From: Tahibacter amnicola
GTDB taxonomy: Bacteria > Pseudomonadota > Gammaproteobacteria > Xanthomonadales > Rhodanobacteraceae
Direction: 5' to 3'
Assembly (NCBI RefSeq): GCF_025398735.1
Contig: NZ_CP104694.1
Span: 3,373,001 to 3,437,000 of the forward strand
DNA length: 64,000 nucleotides
The notes under the pieces are model-generated. The model was given only the letters and a program-made list of their open reading frames with translations, did no database searches and was not told the origin of the DNA. Positions within the stretch are counted from its first letter, which is position 1; each line of letters opens with the position of its first letter. Below, piece by piece: positions 25,885 to 50,253 of the stretch. The position numbers were made by a program, and so were the translations under genes.

Positions 25885-25907
25885 GTCCAGCCCCGTAGGA
25901 TGTGCCG

Positions 25908-28643
25908 ATGGCGAAGCTCAGCGAATATTCTGCCAAGCGACGCTTTGAAGCCACCCCCGAGCCGGCGCCGCAGGTGCCTGCGGAAGGTTCCGGACCCTTG
26001 CTGTTCGTGGTGCAGCAACATGCGGCGAGCCGGCTGCACTACGATTTTCGCCTGGAATGCGACGGAATCCTGAAGTCATGGGCGGTGCCCAAGGGGCCGT
26101 CACTCAACCCGGATGACAAACGCCTCGCCGTGCACGTCGAGGACCATCCCTACGACTACGCCTCGTTCGAGGGCGTGATTCCGCCCCGGCAGTACGGCGC
26201 CGGCGAGGTCATCGTGTGGGACTGTGGCGTGTACAGCCCTGACGAGGGCGGTACCGTGTTCAACGACCGGGACGAGGCCATGCGGCGCGTCCGTGCAGGG
26301 TTGGCGGCCGGAAAGCTCAGCATCCAGTTGCGTGGCGAGAAACTGAAGGGCTCGTTCGCATTGGTACGCACCAAGGACGAGAAGACCTGGCTGCTCATCA
26401 AGCACCGCGATCGTTTCGTCAGTGCGGCGGACATCACCATGCGCGAAGCATCGGTACTCTCGGGCGTCGCCGTGCGAGACCTGCGACGTGCACCGGTACA
26501 CCGCCTTGCGGCCGGCCAGTTGGCCCCACGGGGCACGACATCCGCGATGCCGACGCGCCTGGCGCCGATGCTGGCGGAGTCCGCCGACGAGCCGTTCGAG
26601 CATGAGGACTGGCTATGGGAGCCCAAGCTCGACGGGTATCGCGTGCTCGCTTTTATTGACGACGCCGGCGTGCGCTTGCGTTCACGCGGCGGGTTGGAAC
26701 TGGCGCCGGCATTCCCCCGGCTGGTCGCCGAACTCCGGCAGCAGGCGGAGCGGGGCATGATTCTCGACGGCGAAATCGTCGCGTTCGACGCCACGGGCAG
26801 GCCCTCTTTCGCCACGCTGCAGAACCGTGCCCAGCTCAAGAGCGACCGGGACATCGCGGCGGCGGATCGCACCTCGCCGACGCTGTTCTTCGCGTTCGAT
26901 CTGCTCTATTTCGAAGGCGTGGATTTGCGTAGCCGGCTGTACCGGGACCGCCGTCGCTATCTGGTGCAATGCCTTCTGCCGACGCCACTGGTGCAGCTCG
27001 TGCACGCGCAGGAGGACGGTGTTGCGTTGCACGCGGCGGCGATGGCGAGTGGTTTCGAAGGGGTGATGGGCAAGCGCAAAGACTGCCCCTACGTCGCCGG
27101 CAAGCGCTCCCCCGCATGGCTCAAGGTAAAGCCGACGCGGAGCGCCGAATTCGTGATTGGCGGATACACGCAGGGCAGGGGCTCGCGCTCGGCGCTGGGT
27201 GCATTGCTGCTCGGGTACTGGAAACAGGGGGCATTGCACTACGTGTCCCACGTCGGTTCCGGTTTTGATACGCGAAGTCTGAAAGCAGTTCAGGCACGTC
27301 TGGCGCCGCTCGTCACGCGCCGTTGCCCGTTCCCGGAAAAGCCCGAGGTGAATGCACCGGTGACCTGGGTCAAACCCGAACTGGTGGCCGAGGTGACGTT
27401 TCAGCGCTGGACCGAGGATGACTCACTGCGGTCGCCGATTTTCCACCGCTTGCGCGACGACATAGACGCGGCGTCCGTGCGCCGTCCGAAGGATCCTGGG
27501 ACAAAGGCGCCGTCGTCCAGAACCACGCCGGCTTCCGTCCGTTCGCGGCGGGCGCGACCGGATGCCGCCGGAGGGGAGCAGAGCGAGCTCCTTGCCCAGC
27601 TCGACAGCACCCGGAACAATGTCGTGCTGCACGTCGGCGAGCACCGCATCAAGCTCACCCACCTGGACCGCGTGTACTGGCCGGCCGATGCGGCTACCCG
27701 GCAAGCCGCGCTGACCAAGCGCGATCTCCTGCGCTATTTCGTGCACGTGGCCGACTGCATCCTGCCGCACCTGGCGGATCGCCCGCTCACCCTGATTCGC
27801 ATGCCCGACGGGATCGAGGGCACGCGCTTCTTCCAGAAGCACTGGACGCAGGCCAAGCCGGACTTCGCCGACACTGTTACCGTGTTTTCCGAGCACAAGG
27901 ACGAGGACCACGAGTACCTGGTGTGCAACAACCTGGCGACCTTGCTGTGGCTGGCCCAATCCGGCGCGCTGGAATTCCACGTATGGCATTCGCGTTCCAC
28001 ACGTGGCGCGGACACCCGCGTGACATCCACCGATTTCTCCAGCTCGCTGGAAGCGCTCGAGGCGTCGGTGCTGAATTTCCCCGACTATGTCGTCTTCGAT
28101 ATCGACCCGTACATCTATTCCGGCAAGGAAGCGAAGGGCGCCGAGCCTGAACTGAACACCGTCGCCTTTGAAAAGGGTAAGGAAATTGCCTTCCGCCTGC
28201 GCGAGTTGCTGGAGGAAATGCGGCTTGAGCCCATCGTGAAGACCTCCGGCAAGACGGGCCTGCACGTGTTCGTGCCGATCCGGCGCACGCTCGATTTCGA
28301 CGCGGCGCGGCAGGTATCGGAGCTGGTGAGTCGTCACCTGCTGCGCCGCTACCCCAAGGACATCACCATGGAGTGGGCGGTGAACAAGCGGACTGGCAAG
28401 ATCTTCATGGACCACAACATGAACGTGCGCGGCAAGACCTTGAACGTGGCCTGGTCGCCGCGCGGAGTGCCGGGTGCGCCGGTTTCCATGCCCATCAGCT
28501 GGGAAGACCTGGTACGTGCCCATCCGCTCGACTTTACCCTAACAAGTGTGGTAAAGGGCTTGATTTACAGGGAAGATCGTTGGCGAAATGCGCTCACGCG
28601 CAAGGCCGACATGGAGAAGATTCTGAAGCAGGCAAAGAAGTAG
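25908..28643 (+). CDS. ligD: ATP-dependent DNA ligase D (NHEJ)
   Basis: A 911-residue three-domain LigD in the Pseudomonas order: 3'-phosphoesterase, ligase, polymerase. The phosphoesterase (about residues 25-165) shows SRLHYDFRLE and HVEDHPYDYASFEG. The ligase part has the nucleotidyl-transfer motif with catalytic Lys240 in EPKLDGYR, then DGEIVAFD and FVIGGYTQG. The polymerase (about 600-890) has the AEP-type motif FDIDPY and the HVFVPI block. Together with Ku it repairs double-strand breaks by non-homologous end joining. The ATG at 25908 follows TAGGA by 7 bases. The ku gene starts 72 bp downstream, in an operon. Confidence 0.95.
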   Translation: MAKLSEYSAKRRFEATPEPAPQVPAEGSGPLLFVVQQHAASRLHYDFRLECDGILKSWAVPKGPSLNPDDKRLAVHVEDHPYDYASFEGVIPPRQYGAGEVIVWDCGVYSPDEGGTVFNDRDEAMRRVRAGLAAGKLSIQLRGEKLKGSFALVRTKDEKTWLLIKHRDRFVSAADITMREASVLSGVAVRDLRRAPVHRLAAGQLAPRGTTSAMPTRLAPMLAESADEPFEHEDWLWEPKLDGYRVLAFIDDAGVRLRSRGGLELAPAFPRLVAELRQQAERGMILDGEIVAFDATGRPSFATLQNRAQLKSDRDIAAADRTSPTLFFAFDLLYFEGVDLRSRLYRDRRRYLVQCLLPTPLVQLVHAQEDGVALHAAAMASGFEGVMGKRKDCPYVAGKRSPAWLKVKPTRSAEFVIGGYTQGRGSRSALGALLLGYWKQGALHYVSHVGSGFDTRSLKAVQARLAPLVTRRCPFPEKPEVNAPVTWVKPELVAEVTFQRWTEDDSLRSPIFHRLRDDIDAASVRRPKDPGTKAPSSRTTPASVRSRRARPDAAGGEQSELLAQLDSTRNNVVLHVGEHRIKLTHLDRVYWPADAATRQAALTKRDLLRYFVHVADCILPHLADRPLTLIRMPDGIEGTRFFQKHWTQAKPDFADTVTVFSEHKDEDHEYLVCNNLATLLWLAQSGALEFHVWHSRSTRGADTRVTSTDFSSSLEALEASVLNFPDYVVFDIDPYIYSGKEAKGAEPELNTVAFEKGKEIAFRLRELLEEMRLEPIVKTSGKTGLHVFVPIRRTLDFDAARQVSELVSRHLLRRYPKDITMEWAVNKRTGKIFMDHNMNVRGKTLNVAWSPRGVPGAPVSMPISWEDLVRAHPLDFTLTSVVKGLIYREDRWRNALTRKADMEKILKQAKK

Positions 28644-28715
28644 GCCGCCCGCAGTCTTCTCGGCTCGCGCGGGATCCAGGCACTGGGCAGGGCCGACAGC
28701 ATGGTGGGGAACGTC

Positions 28716-29606
28716 ATGGCTGCACGTTCGATCGCGTCGCTGACCGTATCCTTCGGCCTCGTGGCCATTCCGGTGAAGCTGTATACCGCCACCGAATCGC
28801 GCAGCGGCATTTCATTCAATCTCCTGCACAAGGCCCCGTGTGGTGCCCGTGTCAAGCAGCAGTACCTGTGCGCACGCGAGAACATCCCGATTTCCCGGGA
28901 CGAGATGGTCAAGGGCTACGAGTTCGCCAAGGACCAGTACGTGATGTTCACGGCCGACGAGCTGAAGGCGCTGGAGGAGGCGGGTACTCATAGCGCGGAC
29001 ATCACCGAGTTCGTGCCGATCAGCGCGGTCGACCCGGTGTATTACGACAAGGCCTACTACCTTGCGCCGGACAAGGGCGGTGCAAAACCCTATGCGCTGC
29101 TCGCCCAGGCCTTGCGCGAATCCGACCGCTGCGCGATTGGTCATTGGGCAACGCGTGGCAAGAGCTACATCGTCATGATCCGTCCGGTGGAGGACGGCCT
29201 CGTCATGCAGCAACTCCTGTATGCGACCGAAGTGCGCGCGATCAGCGATCTCGACATCCCGAGGACGGAAGTGAGGGCGCAGGAATTGAAACTGGCGCAG
29301 CAGCTGATCGACGCCCAGAGCAGCGAACGTTTTGATCCCACGCAATACAAGGACGAGGTCGCCGAGCGCGTCGCCGCCGCCGTGCAGAAGAAGGTGGAGG
29401 GCGAGCAGATCACCCTGGCCGAGGAGCCCGAGGGCGGTGCACAGATCATCGACCTGATGGAAGCCCTTCGGGCGAGCCTGGAAAAAAAGGGCGCCCGCAA
29501 GGCGGAGCCGGCCGCGAAAGAGAAGCCGGCGCGCAAACCGGCCAAGCAGGTGCCGACCGTTGACGTCGAAGCGCCTAGGCGCAAGGGCGTGAAGAAGGCC
29601 AGGTGA
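28716..29606 (+). CDS. ku: Ku protein (NHEJ)
   Basis: A 296-residue bacterial Ku, the DNA-end binder that recruits LigD. The start MAARSIASLTVSFGLVAIPV is typical and fixes the ATG at 28716, with GGGGA upstream; an ATG at 28701 is less likely. The Ku core runs from there through FAKDQYVMFTADELKALEE, then DPVYYDKAYYLAPDKGGAKP and FDPTQYKDEVAERVAAAV. The C-terminus is Lys/Arg- and Pro-rich (KPARKPAKQVPTVD), typical of the extension that binds DNA or LigD. It follows ligD and is followed by a MerR-like/TPR gene 46 bp away. Confidence 0.95.
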   Translation: MAARSIASLTVSFGLVAIPVKLYTATESRSGISFNLLHKAPCGARVKQQYLCARENIPISRDEMVKGYEFAKDQYVMFTADELKALEEAGTHSADITEFVPISAVDPVYYDKAYYLAPDKGGAKPYALLAQALRESDRCAIGHWATRGKSYIVMIRPVEDGLVMQQLLYATEVRAISDLDIPRTEVRAQELKLAQQLIDAQSSERFDPTQYKDEVAERVAAAVQKKVEGEQITLAEEPEGGAQIIDLMEALRASLEKKGARKAEPAAKEKPARKPAKQVPTVDVEAPRRKGVKKAR

Positions 29607-29652: not shown

Positions 29653-30522
29653 ATGGGAATGGACGTGCAGGTCATGATGAAACCGGAGCCGTCCACCCAT
29701 CCCTACGGCGTGCCCGATGTGGAACGATTGCTGCGACTGCCGCGCAGCACGTTGCGCGCATTGATCGCTGCGGGATTTGTGACGCCGGCACGCGGGCCAC
29801 GCAATGCGTACCTGTTCTCGTTTCAGGATCTGATCGTGCTGCGTACGGCGCAGGCGCTGTCCAACGCAAAAGTGCCGCAGCGCCGCATCATGCGCGCACT
29901 GAAACTGCTGCGTGCACGACTGCCTGATCATCTGCCGCTCTCGCAATTGTCGCTGCAGGCGCTGGCGGATCATGTGGTCGTGCGCGAAGGTGGCGCACGC
30001 TGGCACGCCGAATCGGGCCAGTACGTCTTTTCCTTCGAAGGCGAGGCCGCTCCGGTTGCCGTGCATACTCTTCAATCGCCTGCAATGCGGAGTGCCGACG
30101 CGGCGATCATTGCTGACACGAGCTATGCCGAAGGCATCGCCCTGGAGGAAGGCGCCACCGACGCCGCCGAGCGCGCCTATCGCCGCGCCATTGCCGCCGA
30201 TCCGACGCGCCTGGATGCACGCATCAATCTCGGCCACCTGCTGCACGCAAACGGTCGCACCGAAGAGGCGGAAGCCACTTACCGCGATGCCCTGTCAGCC
30301 TGCGGCAACGAGGCGACGCTGCTGTACAACCTCGCCGTGCTGCTGGATGACCTGGGCCGCAAACCCGAGGCCATGCGCACTTACGAGGCTGCGCTGCGCG
30401 AAGACGCGCAGCTGGCCGATGGTCACTACAATCTTGCGCTGCTGTACGAAGAACTTGGTCAGCCTACGCGCGCGTTGCGGCATATGGCGCACTATCGACG
30501 GCTGGTGCAGGGTGCTGAGTAG
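29653..30522 (+). CDS. MerR-like HTH protein with TPR repeats
   Basis: A 289-residue protein. The N-terminal part (residues about 15-90) is a MerR-like DNA-binding domain: YGVPDVERLLRLPRSTLRAL, then FVTPARGPRNAYLFSFQDLI, and IVLRTAQALSNAKVPQRRIM. The second half has about three TPR repeats (AYRRAIAADPTRLDARINLG, HLLHANGRTEEAEATYRDAL, HYNLALLYEELGQPTRALRH). Its position 46 bp after ku suggests a role in regulating or assembling the NHEJ pathway, but this is only inferred from context. No effector domain other than the TPRs is visible. Cytosolic. Confidence 0.75.
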   Translation: MGMDVQVMMKPEPSTHPYGVPDVERLLRLPRSTLRALIAAGFVTPARGPRNAYLFSFQDLIVLRTAQALSNAKVPQRRIMRALKLLRARLPDHLPLSQLSLQALADHVVVREGGARWHAESGQYVFSFEGEAAPVAVHTLQSPAMRSADAAIIADTSYAEGIALEEGATDAAERAYRRAIAADPTRLDARINLGHLLHANGRTEEAEATYRDALSACGNEATLLYNLAVLLDDLGRKPEAMRTYEAALREDAQLADGHYNLALLYEELGQPTRALRHMAHYRRLVQGAE

Positions 30523-30531
30523 AGCGCCGGT

Positions 30532-32034
30532 TCAGCGTGGCAGAAACAGATCGCGTCGCCTCAGTCCGCCCTGCCAGGAGGTGTCGCAGGAGCAGGTGTT
30601 CTTGATACCGCCGCGGAGCCGGCAGGAATTGTTCACGCCTTCCCGGTAACCGCCTTCCTGTGTAGCGCGCACACGCGTGCGGAACTGGTCGGTGCCCACG
30701 ACGCGGGCGCCCTGGTCGAGGCAACTGGCGCCATGGCAATAGCAGGCGCCGAAGACGCCGCCAATGCGGCAGTCCAGATTGGAGCGGCACCCGGTGCGCT
30801 CCGCGAAACAGCCGTAGGTCACCATGCCCTGGGTGTTCGGGTCACCGGTGGGCGCAACGGTCTGATAGACCGAGCCGTTGCCGTCCTCCTCCCGCGGACA
30901 GCCAATCGCCAGCAGGCCCTCGTAGGCGGTTTTCAGGTTGTAGGCGCGCTGCAGGTTCTCGCAGTCTTTCGAGCCCTTCGTCGTGCACAGGGGCGAATAG
31001 ATCTGCATCCACAGCTCCCAGACCGGCTTGAAGCCGAAGCGAATCGGCTGGTCGCCCTGCGAGCCGCTGGCGATAAAGGCGTCGATGCTCTCTTTCGTGA
31101 CTTCCTGCGTGATTGCCACGCGGGTCGCCTCGGTGCCGCCCATGGCAATCTGGCGCGACTCCGAATGTGTGCTCGACGCCTTCTCGCGTTGTTCGCGCGA
31201 ATAGTCGGCGCAGCTGTCGACGCTCCAGCCCTTCTTTGCGGTTTCCTTACCCTCGACCGCAGCGCACGCCTTGGCCTTCAGCACATTCAGGAGGTCGGTG
31301 GTGGTCGCGCTGGAACTCTCCCACCGCTGGAAACGACTGCCGAGCTGCTGGCGGATCATGATGTGCGAGCCAAGCCGCTCCAGATACAACTGGTACGGAT
31401 CCCATTCGCTCTGCTGGCCAGCCCGCTCCGGCGATATCGGCGGCAGAGCCTCGAACTGCTTCACGTCTTCCGGATCGACATTGGACTTTGCGAAGCAATC
31501 GCGGCCGCGTACCTTGAAGTCCACATTGCGCGTCGGTGTGGTGATGTCGAGGTGGGTGCTGGTCATGCGCTCGGTGGTCGTCGAATCGGCCCCCGTCATG
31601 GCTGATACCGACGCCCGCGCAGTCAGGCGTGCTGTCGAATAGCGGGCATCCAGCTCGAAGCTTGCGACTGTCTTGACCGTGAGCTCGCGCATGTTTTCCG
31701 CGCTCTGGAACTGGCGTGTCGCGCGTTCGGTTGGCGGGGACAGCGTCGCGCAGCTGCCCAGGCGCGTGTCCAGGAAGAAGTCGTTGCCTACGTCGGGCGG
31801 ATCGAATCCATTGACGGCCGGCAGGTAAAACGCATGCCCCAGGCCGCGGCAGATTCCGTCGGGGCAGGCGTCCGTGCGCATCGCTTCCACGGTGTCGTTT
31901 TCCACCGTCATCGCCGGCTTTCCCGCGGCAAAGCCGAGGACCACGATCAGGCAAGCAACCCACCGCACATCGCGTAGAGCAAGACGGGCGTGGCGAGAAC
32001 GATCCGGCCGGGCGGGGAGTGCGTTTCGCTTCAT
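30532..32034 (-). CDS. Secreted MACPF (perforin-like) candidate protein
   Basis: A 500-residue exported protein with an uncleaved-looking N-terminal hydrophobic segment (about 23-38, VRWVACLIVVLGFAAG). Residues 214-225, YQLYLERLGSHI, fit the spacing of the MACPF signature (Y-x6-[FY]-G-T-H-[FY]) with Leu, Ser and Ile at the three variable places; His224 is the key residue. The following IRQQLGSRFQRWESSS and the preceding long polar stretch fit pore-forming MACPF domains. The C-terminal part (about 380-500) is Cys-rich (GCFAERTGCRSNLDCRIGG, then CYCHGASCLDQ) and lacks a known name. MACPF proteins form pores in target membranes. The start has AGGAGA at 8 bases. Family membership is motif-based. 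Confidence 0.6.
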   Translation of the reverse strand: MKRNALPARPDRSRHARLALRDVRWVACLIVVLGFAAGKPAMTVENDTVEAMRTDACPDGICRGLGHAFYLPAVNGFDPPDVGNDFFLDTRLGSCATLSPPTERATRQFQSAENMRELTVKTVASFELDARYSTARLTARASVSAMTGADSTTTERMTSTHLDITTPTRNVDFKVRGRDCFAKSNVDPEDVKQFEALPPISPERAGQQSEWDPYQLYLERLGSHIMIRQQLGSRFQRWESSSATTTDLLNVLKAKACAAVEGKETAKKGWSVDSCADYSREQREKASSTHSESRQIAMGGTEATRVAITQEVTKESIDAFIASGSQGDQPIRFGFKPVWELWMQIYSPLCTTKGSKDCENLQRAYNLKTAYEGLLAIGCPREEDGNGSVYQTVAPTGDPNTQGMVTYGCFAERTGCRSNLDCRIGGVFGACYCHGASCLDQGARVVGTDQFRTRVRATQEGGYREGVNNSCRLRGGIKNTCSCDTSWQGGLRRRDLFLPR

Positions 32035-41125: not shown

Positions 41126-41398
41126 AGGCGCGGTCGCTCGCGAATCGCACGCTGCCGAAGAGAGGTCGTGGTCAACTTTCAGCAGCGTGCGACTCACCGT
41201 TCCAGCCGTTCGGCTGGAAGGCGGTCGTCTCCGCGCGCAGGTGCCTGAACATCATAGGTGCCCTCCGCAGCCGGGAAAGTTGTTCCAAATTGTTACGTTG
41301 CGATTGGGGGCGCGGAATTCGGCGATTTTCCTTTTCCGCCTTCGGGTTCGGGCGTAAGGTCGCCCGGCAGGCTCGGATCGCCTCAGGGGGGAAGATCT

Positions 41399-44300
41399 AT
41401 GAAGCGCCGCATTCGCGCAGGCATTCCTGCGTTGCGGGCCGCGCCGATGCGCCCGGCCGTCGTCTCCACGGCACACCGTCACGGGTTGGGTCTGCGAACA
41501 GCCCGCATTTTCGTTTATGCGCTGGTCGCTCTGGCCGTCGTATCGATGCTGGGCGGGAGTCGGCGGCCCGCGGCGGACGCCACGCCTTCAGCAGCTGCAA
41601 AGGGATCTGCCAGCGTGCAGGCGGCGGGCCGCGGCTGGCCCGGCGTGGTCCTTCGCGATGGCTACGCGATGCAGCGGAATTACCGCGGTGATCGCGATGC
41701 CGTGGCCGCGTTGCGAGCCGGCGACGCACATCCTTTGGCGCTTGCCTCTGCGGACGTCGATCACAATGGCACGCCCGATCTGCTTGCCAGCTACGCCGTC
41801 GGCAGTACTGGCGTTGTCACGCTGCAGCGAGGGAATACCGACGCGTTTGCGCCGGCTGACGAGTCCATCTATCCGCGCATCCAGCAGGGCTACGATCCCG
41901 ATTCGCTGCTACCGGAGACGCAAAGCTTTGCCGTTCCCGTGGCACCGCATTTCCTGGTCAGCGGCCGCTTCAGCGATGGTGCAGGCGTCGACATCCTGGT
42001 CGCCGCAAAAGGCGGTGGACTGTACCTGCTTAAGGGAGACGGCGCCGGAACATTCGGCGTAGCGCAGGAGATTCCCTTGCCCGGGACGGTGACGTCCTTG
42101 GCCGCCGGCGAATTTCGCGCGCATGATGGTTACACCGACCTGGCCGTCGGGGTATCGATGGCCGACGGGAATGCCCTGCTGGTTTTCGACGATGCTGTCG
42201 CGGGATTTGCAAAACCCGTGTTGGCCTTGCCAATGACAGAACCGGTGAGCGCCATCGAGTTCGGTGGAATGGACGATGATCCGTTCACCGACGTCATCGC
42301 CGCCAGCGGCAGCGAAGTGGTGGTCGTGCACGGATGGAGCCGCAAGGAGCCAGCTGATCCGGCCTCGCGCGTCGAACGGATCGAAGTGGCGCAGACGGTG
42401 AGCGGCCTGGCCGTTGGCGAATTTACCTGGGATCGCGCGGGACGCACCGAGATAGCCGCACTCACGGCAGATGGCACCGTCCACCTCGTGCACGGATCGG
42501 ACCTCGACTCACGTCCTTTCACCGCTGCCGAGACGGCTGCGCGCAACCGCGGAATGCTGCTGCCGCAAGGCAACCGGGCAGGGGATGTGGAAACCTTCCC
42601 CAGCTGGCAGCCGGCGCGTGCTGCGGGTTGGACCCTGTCGCAGCAGATCACTGCACGCAGCTTCTCCGGCGTCAGCACCGTCGCCGGCAAACCACTGCTT
42701 CGCAGCAACCTGTCGTACCGCGAATCGGATGATCTGCTGCTTCTGGGCGAGAGCCGATCCACGCTTGAGTTCGTCCAGCAGGTTTCCGCGATGACCTGGT
42801 CTGCCAGGAACGCGTCTGCAGAAGGCATGCTCGAACGCACCACGCTGGACGTGGCCAGCGCTCCCGTTGCGGTGCTGTCGCTACCGAAAAAGGTCAATGG
42901 TGTTCGCGATTTCGTCGTCCTTGCGGCGGGCAGCGCGGCGCCGGTCATCGTGCCGCACGCTCCCAATACGACCATCACGGTCGATCGCACCGACGATCCA
43001 TCGGGCGCCGGCTTGACGGCTGCCTCCGCGTGCACCGCGGCGGGTAACGACTGCAGCCTGCGCGGTGCATTCCAGTTTGCGAACAATGGCGCCAACAACA
43101 ACACCACGATCAGCCTTCCCGCAAACACCTACATCCTGAGCATCAATGGCACCAACGCGGGCGGGTGCGACGGCAATGCCCAGGGTGACCTCGGCGCTAA
43201 CCTGACCATGTCGCTGGTCGGCGCAGGTGCCGCGACCACCATCATCCGGCAAACGGGAACGGGCCCGGCGAACGACGGCGATCGCGTCATGTGCATGAAC
43301 GAGCCGTTTACGTTGAGCCTCATTTACACCTTCTCCGGTGTGACGTTTGTCGGTGGACGCGACGGCACGGCAGCTGGTACCGGTGCTGCGCTCGGTGGCG
43401 GCGGCATCATTGGCGGCGAAAAAAGCAATGTGCTCACGATGACGAACGTCGTGATGGCGAACAATCAGGTCACGGTGCTGGGCAGCGCCAATCTCGGCGG
43501 CGGCGGGCTTCAGATCACCGGCGGTGATCTGAATATCACCAATTCCACGTTTGGTGGTGCCAGCGCGCCGGGCGCCTATACCGACCGAACCAGCACCAAT
43601 ACCGCCAATCTGCAAGCTGGCAGCGGGGGTGGCGTGACATTCACCCCATCGGCGCCGCAACACACGGCGGGGACCGGAAACCTCACCGTCACCGGATCGA
43701 CCTTTCAGCGCAATACCGCTGCAGGTATTGGAGGTGGCGGCGCTGACCTGCTGATATTTGCCTTTGCTGCGCCCGGAGGTATCGGCACCGGTGCGGCCAC
43801 CATCGGCACGTCCACGTTCGCCAACAACCAGGGGCTGGGGACGGCCAGCGGTGGCGGCGTCATCGTGGAATCGTTGCCAACCACAGTCGCGACGACGGCC
43901 TTTACGACCAATTCCGCCGGCAATCGCGGCGGTGCCATTTTTGTCGGCGGTTCGAGCCTGCTGCTCAACGGCGCGACGCCCTCCGTCACGCTCTCCGGCA
44001 ATACAGCGACCCTCGGCGGCAGCAGCATCAGCACCTCCAGCGCCGTCAATGTGGCGGGCACCAATACGACCATCGGTGGCGACATCGAAATCGGTACGGG
44101 CGCAACCTGGACCAACAATGCCGGCAGCACGCTCGCGCCGACGAATGTGTTGCTGACCGGTGGTACGTTCAACATGAACAACAGCACGATGAATGTCGGC
44201 GGCAACCTGACCATTCAGCCGGGGTCAGTGGTCGGTTCCACCTTCAACGGTAACACCGGCACGGTCAACATCCTTGGCAACTTCGTGCTCAACGCCGGCG

Positions 44301-47128
44301 GAGCACCCGCCACGACACTCAACGCCGGCACCGGCACGTTCAACTTCAATGGCACCAGTGCCCAGAGCATCACCAACGGCACCAGCATTACCTTCTTTAA
44401 TCTCACCGACTCGAACGTCACCCAGCCACTGACGCTCAACAACAGTTTGGCGATCAGCGGTACCCTCAACGTCAACGGTGCCAATGCCATTCTGTCGCCG
44501 GTGGCGGGAGCGATCATCAGCGGCAGCGGAACCCTGACCGGAACTGGCACTGCGCGCGCTTCACGCACCGCGCCGACAGCGGATTTCCTGTCGCAATACA
44601 CGCTTACCAACAAGACGCTGACGTCCCTCAATATCGACTACAGCGGCGCGAACAACCAGACCATCAACAACACGCCGGCCTACAGCCGCCTGACCGTTTC
44701 CGGCACCGGTACCAAGACCCTGCAAGGCAATACGGTCATCACCGGCAGCCTGACCATCGCCGCGGCCACCATGGCCAGCGGCAACCACACTTTCAGCCTC
44801 GGCGGCAACTGGACCAACAACGCCACATTCACGCCGGGTACGGGCACCGTCCTGTTCAACGGCAGCAGTGGCACGCAACTGCTGACCGGCAACACCACGT
44901 TCTTCAACCTGACGCTCAACAATACTGGCGCCATCACCCACTTCGGCAACACGACCACCACCGTCGGAAACGATCTGGTCGCTGCAGCGGGCACTATGGA
45001 CGGCGGAACGTCCACCGTGACCTTTACCGGCATCACGGACAACGTCGGCGCCATCAGCGGAGCCGCGGCGAAGAATTTCCACAATCTGCAGATCAGCGGC
45101 CCTGCCGCTATCACGCACAACACGGGCGCGAACATCACGATTGAAGGCAACTACACCAACGGCGGCACGTTCAACCAGGGCGCAGGGCTGACGACCATCT
45201 TCGACGTCGACAACAGCGCGGATGGTGCGCACACGCTGGCCGGCGGCGGAACCACCACATTCGGCAACGTGACGATCAACGGCTCCAACACGGTGAATGC
45301 CGGCACGCACAGCTTCAACGTGGGGGGCGCGGGTTTCGCCGTGGCCGGCACTTTCACCGGCAATGCCAGTACGGCGGCCTTCAATGGGGCTGTGGCCCAG
45401 TCAATCACCGGTGACGGCAGCAAGAACTTCAGTGGCCTGTTGATCAACAACGCGAACGGCGTACAGGTCACCAATAGCGCAGCCCCCGTGGATGCCACCG
45501 TCGGTGGTTTGCTGACGCTGTCGACGGACCTGACGGTAGCCACGGACGCGATCCTGCAGCAAAGCGGCACTTCCGACGGCATTGCCGACGTTCTGGGTAC
45601 CGTGCGGCGCTCGGACCTGGGAACCACGCCCCGGCACTTTGGTAATCCGGGCAACGCGGTCACTATCAATACGGGAACACCGCCCTCGCAACTGGACTTC
45701 CACCTCGCGAAAGCGGCGCCTTCGCCCTTTGCGGCGGGCGTCAAAGTCGTCCCCCGGCAGATCACGCTCACGCCGGTCGGCGGCGCGAGCATGTCCGCCA
45801 CTGTGGCGCTGCGATACACCGACCCCGGCGAGTTGAGCGCGGCGGGGATCACCGAATCGCGGCTGGGATTGTGGAAGAACATCGCCAGTGCCTGGACCGT
45901 TCAGGGCGGAACCGTGGATGCCGCCAACAACACCGTCAGTCACAGCGGCATCACGTCGTTTTCCCAATGGGCCATTGCCGAAATGGCAGACCTCACCCTG
46001 GCGAAGTCCAACAGCGTCAGCGGCACGGCCGTCGTCGGCCAAGGCTGGAATTGGACCCTTTCCGCGAGTAACGCGGGCTCGCCGGCGACTTTCAGCACCG
46101 GGCAGACCATCCTGTCCGACGCCTTGCCCAACAGTGGCCTGATTTACGGTACGCCGACGGTTCAGAACGTGTCGAACGTAACCGGTGCCGGAAACATCAG
46201 CTGCGCCATTGCCAGTAACGACCTGACCTGCACCGCCACCGGCGCGGTGACTTTCAATTCGGATGTGGGCGTCAGCAGTTTTGACGTCGTCCTCCCGGCG
46301 ACACCGCAATCCGCCGGCACCTATGTGAACCCGCGCAGCGCCAGCGGCGCACGCATCGATCCCCTCACCGTCGTCGTCGAAAGCAGCGAGGGCAACAACG
46401 CGCCGGCGGATAACACGGTCACGGTCACCAAGGCCAGCACCACGACCACCATCAGCTCCGCCGCACCCGACCCCTCGCAGGTCGGCGCTGCGGTCACCGT
46501 GCAGTGGGCCGTGGCAGTGAGCGTGCCAGGTGCCGTAGGCACCGCATTGTCCGGCAACGTCACCGTCAGTGACGGAACCGACAGCTGCAGCGCCGCTGTT
46601 TCAGCCGGGCAATGCGCCGTCACGCTCACCACAGCCGGCACGAGGAGCCTCACGGCGACCTACGCCGGCGACGGCAACTACAACGGCAGCACGTCGGGCT
46701 CCGAGTCGCACCTCGTGATGGCCTCGCCAACCCTTACCAAGGGGTTCGCGCCCGCATCCATTCCGTTCGGTGCCAATGCCGTGGTCACGCTGACGCTGAG
46801 CAACAGCAATAGCACTGCGCTGACCAATGCCGCCTTCGGCGATGTGCTCTCCAACATGAGCGCCACCGGCGGGGCGGTTACCGGCACCTGCGCCGGCATC
46901 GCGCCAGTCACCCTGGCGCCCGGCGCCACTGTGCTCGCGTTTACGGGAGCGACAATCCCGGCATCGGGGAGCTGCACTGTCGTCTTCTCCGTAACCAGCA
47001 GCACCGCCGGCAACCATCCCAACACGACGTCCGGCATCACCACGACCGAAACGCCCACGGCCGGTCCACCCAGCAATACCGCCACCCTCACCGTAGGTGA
47101 CGTCATATTCGCCAATGGGTTCCAATAA
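41399..47128 (+). CDS. Giant secreted FG-GAP / CSLREA / beta-helix adhesin-like protein
   Basis: A 1909-residue exported protein. The start ATG at 41399 has a GGGGGG purine run upstream; a hydrophobic segment (IFVYALVALAVVSMLGG, about 35-51) serves as signal or anchor. Residues about 110-480 hold FG-GAP-like repeats (ADVDHNGTPDLLASYAVGS, YTDLAVGVSMADGNALLVFD, DVIAASGSEVVVV). A CSLREA-like domain (CTAAGNDCSLRGAFQFAN, about 545-562) leads into a right-handed beta-helix (about 560-1450) with Ser/Thr/Asn/Gly-rich rungs. Then DUF11-like and Ig-like (Big_3) domains follow, and the C-terminus ends GDVIFANGFQ. It reads as a surface adhesin. No catalytic motif. The next gene starts within its stop codon (TAATG). 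Confidence 0.88.
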   Translation: MKRRIRAGIPALRAAPMRPAVVSTAHRHGLGLRTARIFVYALVALAVVSMLGGSRRPAADATPSAAAKGSASVQAAGRGWPGVVLRDGYAMQRNYRGDRDAVAALRAGDAHPLALASADVDHNGTPDLLASYAVGSTGVVTLQRGNTDAFAPADESIYPRIQQGYDPDSLLPETQSFAVPVAPHFLVSGRFSDGAGVDILVAAKGGGLYLLKGDGAGTFGVAQEIPLPGTVTSLAAGEFRAHDGYTDLAVGVSMADGNALLVFDDAVAGFAKPVLALPMTEPVSAIEFGGMDDDPFTDVIAASGSEVVVVHGWSRKEPADPASRVERIEVAQTVSGLAVGEFTWDRAGRTEIAALTADGTVHLVHGSDLDSRPFTAAETAARNRGMLLPQGNRAGDVETFPSWQPARAAGWTLSQQITARSFSGVSTVAGKPLLRSNLSYRESDDLLLLGESRSTLEFVQQVSAMTWSARNASAEGMLERTTLDVASAPVAVLSLPKKVNGVRDFVVLAAGSAAPVIVPHAPNTTITVDRTDDPSGAGLTAASACTAAGNDCSLRGAFQFANNGANNNTTISLPANTYILSINGTNAGGCDGNAQGDLGANLTMSLVGAGAATTIIRQTGTGPANDGDRVMCMNEPFTLSLIYTFSGVTFVGGRDGTAAGTGAALGGGGIIGGEKSNVLTMTNVVMANNQVTVLGSANLGGGGLQITGGDLNITNSTFGGASAPGAYTDRTSTNTANLQAGSGGGVTFTPSAPQHTAGTGNLTVTGSTFQRNTAAGIGGGGADLLIFAFAAPGGIGTGAATIGTSTFANNQGLGTASGGGVIVESLPTTVATTAFTTNSAGNRGGAIFVGGSSLLLNGATPSVTLSGNTATLGGSSISTSSAVNVAGTNTTIGGDIEIGTGATWTNNAGSTLAPTNVLLTGGTFNMNNSTMNVGGNLTIQPGSVVGSTFNGNTGTVNILGNFVLNAGGAPATTLNAGTGTFNFNGTSAQSITNGTSITFFNLTDSNVTQPLTLNNSLAISGTLNVNGANAILSPVAGAIISGSGTLTGTGTARASRTAPTADFLSQYTLTNKTLTSLNIDYSGANNQTINNTPAYSRLTVSGTGTKTLQGNTVITGSLTIAAATMASGNHTFSLGGNWTNNATFTPGTGTVLFNGSSGTQLLTGNTTFFNLTLNNTGAITHFGNTTTTVGNDLVAAAGTMDGGTSTVTFTGITDNVGAISGAAAKNFHNLQISGPAAITHNTGANITIEGNYTNGGTFNQGAGLTTIFDVDNSADGAHTLAGGGTTTFGNVTINGSNTVNAGTHSFNVGGAGFAVAGTFTGNASTAAFNGAVAQSITGDGSKNFSGLLINNANGVQVTNSAAPVDATVGGLLTLSTDLTVATDAILQQSGTSDGIADVLGTVRRSDLGTTPRHFGNPGNAVTINTGTPPSQLDFHLAKAAPSPFAAGVKVVPRQITLTPVGGASMSATVALRYTDPGELSAAGITESRLGLWKNIASAWTVQGGTVDAANNTVSHSGITSFSQWAIAEMADLTLAKSNSVSGTAVVGQGWNWTLSASNAGSPATFSTGQTILSDALPNSGLIYGTPTVQNVSNVTGAGNISCAIASNDLTCTATGAVTFNSDVGVSSFDVVLPATPQSAGTYVNPRSASGARIDPLTVVVESSEGNNAPADNTVTVTKASTTTTISSAAPDPSQVGAAVTVQWAVAVSVPGAVGTALSGNVTVSDGTDSCSAAVSAGQCAVTLTTAGTRSLTATYAGDGNYNGSTSGSESHLVMASPTLTKGFAPASIPFGANAVVTLTLSNSNSTALTNAAFGDVLSNMSATGGAVTGTCAGIAPVTLAPGATVLAFTGATIPASGSCTVVFSVTSSTAGNHPNTTSGITTTETPTAGPPSNTATLTVGDVIFANGFQ

Positions 47129-50100
47129 TGGACAGCGAACCGGCACCCTCCCGAATACGCCGCCCCGCGTGCCTTGCAGCAGCATGGTTCGGCCTGTCGT
47201 GCAGCTTTGCGCAGGCGCAGCTGGTTCCCGTCGACTGGTATCGCATGGGCGATAACGACGATGCGCCGGTTGGTCAGACGCTGGCCACGACGGCGGATCT
47301 CATCGGTACCAAGCCGCTGACGATCAACGGCAACAGCGTGCAGGTCACGGCGGACGTCAGCGACGCGGCGGCGACCAAGGTCGGCAGCGGGCGCTCCCTG
47401 CAGTTCACTACGCGCGATAGCGACTACGCATCCGGCCCGTTGCTGACCACGGCCACCGACAACTTCGGACTCGAAGCCTGGGTCAAGCCGCTCAGCGGCA
47501 TTCCCGGCGACCAGGTCATCGCCTACAACGGCTATTTCGGGCTCAACGGCTTCGGCATCGTGCTCAAGCCCGATAACAAGTATTACGGCCAGATCGGCGC
47601 AGCCACATTCGGTGGCTCATCCGCGACGTTGGGCAGCTGGACGCACCTGGCCCTCGTTCGTAGCGACGGTCTCGCGCGGTTGTATGTCAATGGCGTGGCA
47701 GTCGGCTTTGTGGAAACCACGCCGCCTGCCACGCCGACCCTGGGTTTCAGCATCGGCAGCGGTTTGCCGGCGGGTGCGAGCGGCCTGCAGGGGTTGGTCG
47801 ACGAAGTACGCTACTTCACTTTTCCACCCGGCAACTTCGTGGCGAGCCAGCTGCTGACGGGTGCCAAGATGGTCCCGACGATCGCCGACGACGGCTCGGA
47901 TTCCCTGCGTGTTGCCCTGGCCACGGCGACTCCGGGCCAGACGATCGTGATTTCCGCCACGGGCACGATACGGTTGGACAGTCCCCTCATGATCTGGCAG
48001 GGCGTGAACCTGGCGGGTCCGGGCGCGCAGCATCTGAGCATCAGCGGCTCCAATACGCAGCGCGTGATCTGGGTCGATGAACTCTCCGCGGTACCGGTAC
48101 CGCTGCACATCGCCGCGGTGTCCATCACCAACGGGCTCGCCAAAGGTGGCGCGGGCGGGTTCGGCAAGTCCGGTGGCGGTGGCGGCATGGGCGCCGGTGC
48201 CGGTCTTTTCGTCAACCGGGGCGACGTCACGCTGAATCACGTGAGCTTCAGCGGAAACGTCGCACAGGGCGGCAACGGTGGTTACGGCGGCGCAGGCGCG
48301 TATTGCGCAGGCGGCGGTGGCGGACTCGGGGGCGACGGAGGCTCCGCGTCCTCCTATTCGAGCAGCGCGGGTGGCGGCGGATGGCTCGGCGCAGGTGGTT
48401 CCAGCGTCGTGTCCGCATATCCCCATTATTTCGGCGGCGCCGGAGGCGGCGGCATCACCGGCGCCGGTGGAACGCCTGGTCCGCGTTCCGGCGGCGGAGG
48501 CGGGGCCTATGACGCCGGGGGCAACGGCATTGACACCTACGGCGGCGCAGGAGCCAACAGCATCGGCGGCGACGGTGGCTCCAGCGCGGGTCCCAACGGC
48601 ACCAACTATCAGCAAGGCAAGCCGGGCCTGGAATTTGGCGGTGGTGGCGGGTCGGCCTTTCAGTCAGGCGGCGACGGCGGTCGCTACGGCGGCGGCGGCG
48701 GTGGCAGTGGCGGCCTGGGACGCGGCGGTGCCGGCGGCGACTTCGGGGGCAGCGGTGGCGGCAACGGTATGGGGGCACCTGGCTTTGGCGGCGGCAGCGG
48801 CGGAAATATCTCGACCACGCCCCATAGCGCGATCTTTGGCGGCGGCTGCGGTGGCTCCACCGGAGCTGGGCAGGTGTGCACGCCAGCCCCGTTCGGCGGG
48901 CCTAACGCCAATCGATTCGGTGACGGCTACGGCGGCGGCGGCGGTGCCCTTGGCGCCGCCGTCTTCGTGCGCGCCAACAATGGGGCGAGCCTCACCTGGA
49001 ACGACAGCTCGACCGATGCCGGGTCGCTGACTCCCGGCAATTCCAACGATCCCGCACGTCGAGGCCAGACGTCAGGTAGCGGACTGTTCCTCCTTGGCGG
49101 CTCCACTACGCTGAATGTCGGCGCCGGTACCCGCACAATCGCCGGTTCCATCGGCGGTTGGAGCGGCGATCCGCCAATGCTCACCAAGACCGGAACCGGC
49201 ACGCTGGTGCTCTCCGGCGGCGGCAGTGCGCTGGGCACCGTTTCCGCCACCAGAGGCGAATTGCGCATCATCGGAAGCGCTGTGGCTCTGGCGGCCGGTC
49301 GTTCGCTCACGGTCCTCAACCCGGCGACCTTGAGCGGTACGGCGGGCGTGAGCGGCCCCGTGATCCTGGCCAATGGCGGCTCTATTTCGCCGGGCGATCC
49401 GACCGTCGCGGCGGGCATCGGCACCCTGGCGCTCGGCGGACTGGGCTGGAGCTCCACCGGCGTCATCGTGATGCAGCTGGGGCAGGACAGCGGTGCAGCC
49501 TCCGACCACCTGACCGTCAATGGCGACCTGACCATGGCAGGCACCGGAATCCACCGGTTCACCATCGCCGATGGCACTGCCGCGCGGATCTGTGGCACGA
49601 CGTACACTCTGATCAATTTCACCGGCAATACGAACTTCACGCCGGCGGACCTGGGCTACACCTACAGCGGCGCGCTGTCGCCGATCTCTCCTGCGAGTTT
49701 CTTCAGCGTGGGCGACAACACGATCCGATTCACCGTCTACTGCCTCGACAACCAGGCCATCACGAACTTCGCCGCGACGCCGGCGAATCCACCTTACGCC
49801 AGCGGCGGCACCTTCAGTATCTCGGCCACCCCGGGCGCATCGAGCAGCCCGCTGGTGTTTGGTTCAGACACGCCGCCGGTGTGCAGCGTCAGCGGCACGA
49901 CCGTGACCATGCACAGCCGCGGCGTGTGCACGCTCACTGCCAATCAGGCCGCAGACACCACCTACAATCCCGCGCCGACAGAATCGCTGACGCTGCACTT
50001 CGAACAGTTCACGGTGAATGCGAGCGCGGAAGACGCGTTCGGCACGATCAACCCGCCCACACAGTCCGTGGACTACGACGGCACCGCGACCTTCACGGTC

Positions 50101-50253
50101 GTACCACAAGCGGGGCATGCCGCAATGGTCAGCGGCGACACCTGCACGGTGACCCAGGGCAGCGGCGACACCTGGATGGCGAGCCACATCACGGCCAACT
50201 GCAACGTCACCGCGAACTTCACCGATCGGATATTTGCTTCCGGGTTCCAATAG
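47128..50253 (+). CDS. Secreted LamG / glycine-rich protein
   Basis: A 1041-residue exported protein whose ATG shares the last base of the previous gene's TAA, so translation is coupled. A signal peptide (about residues 1-30, ACLAAAWFGLSCSFAQAQ) precedes a LamG/concanavalin-like domain (about 32-235, with FGLEAWVKPLSG, GSWTHLALVRSDGLARLYVN, GLVDEVRYF). Residues about 340-630 are extremely Gly-rich (GGGGGGLGGDGG-like runs), then autotransporter-like beta-repeats (TKTGTGTLVLSGG, NGDLTMAGTG) and an Ig-like end (AATPANPPYASGG). It ends TDRIFASGFQ, the same tag as two other proteins here. Probably a surface protein; no transmembrane beta-barrel is visible. Confidence 0.85.
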   Translation: MDSEPAPSRIRRPACLAAAWFGLSCSFAQAQLVPVDWYRMGDNDDAPVGQTLATTADLIGTKPLTINGNSVQVTADVSDAAATKVGSGRSLQFTTRDSDYASGPLLTTATDNFGLEAWVKPLSGIPGDQVIAYNGYFGLNGFGIVLKPDNKYYGQIGAATFGGSSATLGSWTHLALVRSDGLARLYVNGVAVGFVETTPPATPTLGFSIGSGLPAGASGLQGLVDEVRYFTFPPGNFVASQLLTGAKMVPTIADDGSDSLRVALATATPGQTIVISATGTIRLDSPLMIWQGVNLAGPGAQHLSISGSNTQRVIWVDELSAVPVPLHIAAVSITNGLAKGGAGGFGKSGGGGGMGAGAGLFVNRGDVTLNHVSFSGNVAQGGNGGYGGAGAYCAGGGGGLGGDGGSASSYSSSAGGGGWLGAGGSSVVSAYPHYFGGAGGGGITGAGGTPGPRSGGGGGAYDAGGNGIDTYGGAGANSIGGDGGSSAGPNGTNYQQGKPGLEFGGGGGSAFQSGGDGGRYGGGGGGSGGLGRGGAGGDFGGSGGGNGMGAPGFGGGSGGNISTTPHSAIFGGGCGGSTGAGQVCTPAPFGGPNANRFGDGYGGGGGALGAAVFVRANNGASLTWNDSSTDAGSLTPGNSNDPARRGQTSGSGLFLLGGSTTLNVGAGTRTIAGSIGGWSGDPPMLTKTGTGTLVLSGGGSALGTVSATRGELRIIGSAVALAAGRSLTVLNPATLSGTAGVSGPVILANGGSISPGDPTVAAGIGTLALGGLGWSSTGVIVMQLGQDSGAASDHLTVNGDLTMAGTGIHRFTIADGTAARICGTTYTLINFTGNTNFTPADLGYTYSGALSPISPASFFSVGDNTIRFTVYCLDNQAITNFAATPANPPYASGGTFSISATPGASSSPLVFGSDTPPVCSVSGTTVTMHSRGVCTLTANQAADTTYNPAPTESLTLHFEQFTVNASAEDAFGTINPPTQSVDYDGTATFTVVPQAGHAAMVSGDTCTVTQGSGDTWMASHITANCNVTANFTDRIFASGFQ

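Follow-up and report, generated by a model that had tools for sequence, protein, structure and literature searches.

A candidate divergent MACPF protein, probably secreted, from a Lysobacterales bacterium

Introduction

Among bacterial members of the pore-forming perforin/complement (MACPF) proteins with solved structures, those nearest to the protein described here are 2qp2, which we take to be Plu-MACPF, Mpf2Ba1 (8b6u, 8b6v) and 6fbm, a Gram-negative insecticidal protein. This proximity is by proxy, through a comparison protein, L017, that matches all four of these PDB chains, which represent three proteins, with E values from 5e-16 to 1e-19. A second group, the Bacteroidales secreted antimicrobial proteins (BSAPs), is described as carrying, after the MACPF domain, a variable C-terminal domain, which in BSAP-1 decides receptor binding, and as consisting typically of Bacteroidota lipoproteins (PMC12853789). 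The consensus of the MACPF signature is given as Y/W-G-T/S-H-F/Y-x6-GG, from which Bth-MACPF (BT_3439), a predicted lipoprotein, is reported to depart (YGEFV), while keeping its hinge glycines, with both glycine pairs present (PMC2954219).

The protein analysed here, P0001, resembles the BSAPs in the order of its MACPF and C-terminal domains, but lacks their lipobox by inspection, and comes from the Lysobacterales rather than the Bacteroidota. It differs from Bth-MACPF in having G-S at the first glycine pair, and from the solved bacterial MACPFs in lacking a detectable PDB sequence match, while having an N terminus that resembles a signal peptide, and a C-terminal domain rich in Cys. In the literature, no MACPF paper was found for Lysobacter or the Xanthomonadaceae, nor any perforin paper for Tahibacter, and the papers on MACPF proteins in the Gammaproteobacteria, going by their titles and the starts of their abstracts, include none on such a protein in this group.

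A preliminary description of this DNA had proposed a candidate bacterial MACPF protein. This work supports that proposal in a modified form, namely a divergent member outside PF01823 that is recognised through a profile match over the C-terminal half of the domain. We consider it probable that P0001 belongs to the MACPF superfamily as a divergent member, and that its Lysobacterales host exports it, most likely to form pores in another cell. Profile comparison provides the case for homology of residues 212-383; the activity and target are inferred.

Gene and domain organisation

The window, meaning the whole stretch of 64,000 nucleotides that was analysed, comes from a genome consisting of one 6.46 Mb contig. 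The gene and the parts of its product are as follows.

30532..32034, minus strand: P0001 gene, encoding a MACPF-like, presumed secreted protein of 500 aa (stop codon included; from homologues and purifying selection)
31906..32034, minus strand: export signal, about residues 1-43, with a basic stretch and the hydrophobic core VACLIVVLGFAAG (by inspection)
31420..31905, minus strand: presumed MACPF N-terminal half, about residues 44-205, where strands 1-2 and the first membrane hairpin would lie (by position only)
30886..31401, minus strand: MACPF C-terminal half, residues 212-383 (HMMER over 214-366, hhalign over 212-383)
31360..31395, minus strand: degenerate MACPF signature Y214-x6-L-G-S-H-I225, then x6 and G232-S233 (from the sequence)
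31159..31308, minus strand: presumed TMH2, the second transmembrane-hairpin region, which contains C257 and C275 and covers about residues 243-292 (between the signature and GG, boundaries inferred)
31135..31140, minus strand: G299-G300, the second pair of hinge glycines, which aligns with the GG that MACPF domains carry at the bend of strand 4
31009..31032, minus strand: FKPVWELW, residues 335-342, corresponding to L-R-P-I/L-x-E-L in MACPF proteins (HMMER, hhalign and pairwise alignments)
30535..30900, minus strand: Cys-rich C-terminal domain, residues 379-500, presumed target-binding (10 conserved Cys)

The 500-residue reading frame on which the preliminary description relied proved to be a real gene. 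A ribosome-binding site rated as good, AGGAGA, lies at 32047-32042, 5' of the ATG. Third codon positions were the most-changed class in all four homologue pairs (209 of 407, 93 of 175, 56 of 76 and 76 of 170 differences), and the gene is under purifying selection, with a dN/dS of 0.11 for the closest pair, P0004 and P0005; the window copy gave 0.27 with P0004 and 0.23 with P0006. A 290-aa ORF on the plus strand that overlaps the gene (30733-31605) was ruled out as coding, because the minus-strand third positions that change most are the first positions of the plus-strand frame.

By inspection, the homologues have AHA or TQA ahead of the likely signal cleavage site; P0001 has no lipobox, and none of the four homologues has a Cys at the likely cleavage site. 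The protein is probably secreted. Three full-length copies could be compared, two of them near-identical, with the truncated P0006 ending before the region that matches MACPF. Across these three, 18 Cys are conserved, of which 10 fall in residues 379-483. The preliminary description had reported a Cys-rich C-terminal half without a family: the lack of a family held, and residues 378-500 gave no sequence match in the PDB, but the part rich in Cys amounts to the last quarter of the protein (379-483) rather than half of it.

Comparison with the MACPF superfamily

Standard libraries were uninformative on P0001. Its only Pfam match was to a phosphoprotein family at E 0.1, far under that family's cut-off; neither NCBIfam nor PADLOC returned a match; the single PHROGs match, at E 0.25, was to a family of unknown function; and sequence searches of the PDB with P0001 and with its family profile were both negative. 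The better match to an unrelated family that the preliminary description named as grounds for abandoning its proposal was not found in any of these five libraries. In the four carrier genomes, a search with the MACPF family PF01823 itself matched neither P0001 nor anything else, even at a threshold of E 10. As P0001 scores below the gathering cut-off of PF01823, it lies outside this family as modelled. No thiol-activated cytolysin family, representing the cholesterol-dependent cytolysins, appeared among the Pfam matches of P0001 up to E 10, a search in which the HMMER filters drop most weak matches.

Because the libraries were uninformative, a separate MACPF profile was built from the aligned domains of 16 bacterial proteins recognised by PF01823 and taken from other genomes. 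These comprised eight matches in two of 274 genomes from the class, two matches in two of 299 genomes from the phylum, one new protein among 89 and five new among 87. That PF01823 matches occur in just two genomes of each of the class and phylum samples should be read as a lower bound, as Pfam would here miss a member altogether, and secreted pore-formers may hide among the hypothetical proteins of environmental Gammaproteobacteria. One gammaproteobacterial genome, G646 (about 2.0 Mb, 88% complete), holds seven MACPF genes (L009 and L011-L016), including two close pairs, and by eye their products repeat C-x3-Y-x4-G-G-C-like units past the MACPF domain.

The HMMER test set contained the four homologues, 2000 shuffles and 445 ORFs. 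These six-frame ORFs, each 200 aa or longer and not all of them genes, came from 20 stretches of the P0001 genome. Against this background, the 16-protein HMM matched P0001 over residues 214-366 (E 9e-6, 22.2 bits), ranking it first, above all ORFs and shuffles. The best unrelated ORF, which carries a Y-G-T-H of its own, scored 9.3 bits, about level with the homologues P0005 (rank 3, 9.2 bits) and P0004 (rank 4, 8.3 bits); the truncated P0006 ranked 40th. When the four-sequence family was compared with the 16-protein alignment using hhalign, the score was 49.6 (probability 85%) over residues 212-383, a value that none of 300 column shuffles reached, the highest being 22.9. As single sequences in hhalign, P0001 (48.5) and P0004 (40.1) ranked first and second of 447, with the next ORF at 31.0. 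In end-free global pairwise alignments of the C-terminal half, P0001 aligned at p < 0.05 with 13 of the 16 MACPF proteins, and P0004 with nine of the 16; the best partner of P0001 was L017 (z 6.9). The HMM search that the preliminary description had put forward as a check was therefore negative with PF01823, but positive with the 16-protein profile, which placed P0001 first by both HMMER and hhalign, with nulls.

The match is colinear, running from the signature through the presumed second-hairpin region and the GG to P-I-x4-KPVWEL. Firstly, Y214-x6-L221-G-S-H-I225 is present as originally described, and the spacing from the signature to the first hinge glycine, which that description missed, is also right (x6, then G232-S233). 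The signature is nevertheless degenerate: hydrophobic residues occupy the two aromatic positions and G232-S233 replaces the consensus G-G, such that L-G-S-H-I-x6-G-S differs from the consensus at three of seven specified positions. Nor does P0001 match another strict form of the signature, Y-x6-[FY]GTH[FY]. This is not decisive, as Bth-MACPF, a solved MACPF, breaks the consensus too. The G-S-H is a normal variant, also found in L017 and L018, and the relaxed form of the signature occurred in none of the 445 six-frame ORFs or 2000 shuffles of P0001.

Secondly, some 60 residues come next that would accommodate the second membrane-inserting region, the presumed TMH2; they contain C257 and C275, both conserved in all three full-length copies. 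L017 is alone among the 16 comparison proteins in having any Cys 12-85 residues past the signature, and its two adjoin the GG rather than lying mid-region. Of the two helical regions, TMH2 is placed by alignment, whereas TMH1 would fall in the half of the domain without detectable similarity. Thirdly, every one of the three full-length copies retains G299-G300, which is followed in P0001 by a Phe (IDAF) where L017 has a Trp (DTW) in the pairwise alignment, at the conserved-Trp helix of MACPF. Fourthly, P330-I-R-F-G-F-K-P-V-W-E-L341 is the counterpart of LRPI/L-x-EL, with further residues aligning to the next helix. P0001 and L017 share the order of a G-S-H signature, GG, an aromatic-containing helix and a P-V/I-W stretch.

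Proposed mode of action

If P0001 acts as other pore-forming members of the superfamily do, it would first be exported by Sec, using the signal seen by inspection, and might then form disulfides in the periplasm before release by type II secretion. GspD is over its curated cut-off in all four carrier genomes, a finding on the genomes and not on P0001 itself. The 18 conserved Cys fit an oxidising, extracellular setting. By analogy with BSAP-1, the Cys-rich C-terminal domain may bind the target surface, upon which the protein would be expected to oligomerise, with its glycine hinges (232 and 299-300) letting the bent sheet open while the two helical regions unfurl into a beta-barrel pore. The target could be a competing bacterium or a protist grazer, with neither favoured.

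Some MACPF proteins are non-lytic, with hairpins that never insert. Hence P0001 might have the MACPF fold but serve as a surface- or matrix-associated adhesin or a developmental factor, which we regard as unlikely, though deserving of consideration. Such a role would suit the degraded signature and first glycine pair (G-S for G-G), as well as the scarcity of strongly alternating ten-residue windows over the cut-off in the presumed TMH2 (four, versus 18 in the presumed TMH1), and several tested Bacteroides MACPF proteins are reported to have no antimicrobial activity (PMC4999547). However, the second GG is retained in every full-length copy, and Bth-MACPF, which is a MACPF by structure, is likewise described as degraded in its motif (PMC2954219), a comparison of motifs rather than of activities.

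Pore formation in another cell remains the preferred reading of P0001. In pleurotolysin, engineered disulfides tying the membrane hairpins are reported to block lysis until they are reduced (PMC4318580), and the C257/C275 pair deserves a look in the light of these engineered locks. It is conceivable, but very improbable, that P0001 represents a MACPF lineage whose second hairpin is stapled by a natural C257-C275 disulfide, such that the oxidation state at the target gates the pore in the manner of the pleurotolysin locks, and where recognition depends on a new Cys-rich fold. Were P0001 lytic, a Cys-rich targeting domain, and possibly a stapled hairpin, would be added to the known designs.

Robustness of the homology

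The similarity to MACPF proteins is confined to one half of the domain. For the N-terminal half, neither P0001 nor P0004 aligned pairwise at p < 0.05 with any of the 16 MACPF proteins, and the profile comparison was within its null, with 19 of 100 shuffles scoring as high. A reverse search, using the narrow profile of the P0001 family itself, placed no MACPF domain above the shuffles, the best domain ranking 26th.

The outcome also varied with the training set, of which six were used: all 16 proteins; 15 without L017; one per cluster; nine without the G646 paralogues; the seven G646 paralogues; and eight without both G646 and L017. In HMMER, P0001 still ranked first in two of the other sets, at E 0.003 when L017 was left out and at E 0.001 when each cluster contributed one protein. 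It came third with the nine-protein set, 12th with the seven G646 paralogues and 96th with the eight-protein set. In hhalign, none of 100 column shuffles reached the observed score without L017, with one protein per cluster (an alignment spanning just 28 columns, residues 213-240) or with the nine-protein set, but three of 100 did so with the eight-protein set, and 43 of 100 with the G646 paralogues. Hence two of the six sets, the seven G646 paralogues and the eight proteins without G646 and L017, failed by both methods, and the nine-protein set was above its null in hhalign but not in HMMER. In an initial comparison with the G646 paralogues alone, the probability was 0.2%, and the signature was nonetheless in register.

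That P0001 is an unrelated secreted Cys-rich protein, resembling MACPF over residues 212-383 by chance or convergence, would fit the absence of a real library match, the silent N-terminal half, the negative reverse search and the dependence on the training set, but is quite improbable given that P0001 ranked first by two methods over all the ORFs and shuffles tested, that none of 300 column shuffles scored as high, and that the landmarks of the C-terminal half occur in colinear order. In the MACPF domain, the N-terminal half tends to be less conserved. A real but distant homology is supported by these sequence comparisons for one half of the domain, residues 212-383.

Distribution and genomic context

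Homologues of P0001 were found in four of eight genomes of its genus (counting its own, and including one copy cut by a contig end), in three of 398 genomes sampled from the order and in two of 369 sampled from the class, with all of these order and class matches coming from the same genus. In the phylum sample, four of 398 genomes matched at E 0.01, of which two were of the genus. The two weak matches outside it, L007 and L008, were rejected as homologues and taken as chance from their frame positions: the former sits in the coding frame of what we take, from its sequence, to be an ABC-transporter-like ATPase, and the latter is antisense to the frame of what is presumably a Lon-like protease. 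No homologue was present in the plasmids, phages and viral contigs searched. Among named records that carry a homologue, the closest is the MAG Lysobacteraceae bacterium SCN 69-320, at 68% identity over residues 1-498. Within the genomes searched, the family is confined to its genus. As no neighbour is conserved in the loci seen, and four of the eight genus genomes have no match, the gene behaves like an accessory trait; this would be in keeping with a weapon without proving one.

In the window, the gene has a MerR-TPR gene on one side and a TetR gene on the other. The former (29653-30522, plus strand) fuses a MerR-type DNA-binding domain to TPR repeats, and is convergent with the P0001 gene, 9 bases from its stop codon. 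None of nine neighbouring window genes occurs in the stretches available from the three other loci (6.3, 9.7 and 20 kb). The copy in genome G005 is flanked by a DUF4132 gene and a trypsin-like gene (L005:8145-9422, minus strand), the product of which has a signal-like N terminus and weak Pfam matches under cut-off. The trypsin-like gene is divergent from the P0001 homologue in both G005 and G002, where the contig ends soon on the other side; in G006, the neighbour of the cut copy is a divergent subtilase gene (L045:992-2581). No operon partner is conserved in the loci seen; a protease gene adjoins the gene in two of the three settings, which are too few to build on.

No RNA family was detected in the window at gathering thresholds. 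Near the P0001 gene, at 25902-29606 (plus strand), a 913-aa LigD-like protein, presumably a LigD-type DNA ligase, is followed by a Ku gene (Pfam PF02735), and the two would form a bacterial end-joining repair pair. Further along, at 41258-50253 (plus strand), are two very large adjoining ORFs (1956 and 1041 aa), in which Pfam at E 0.001 sees only the end of the first (Big_3_5, DUF7933) and one Laminin_G_3 in the second, the greater part of both being without a family.
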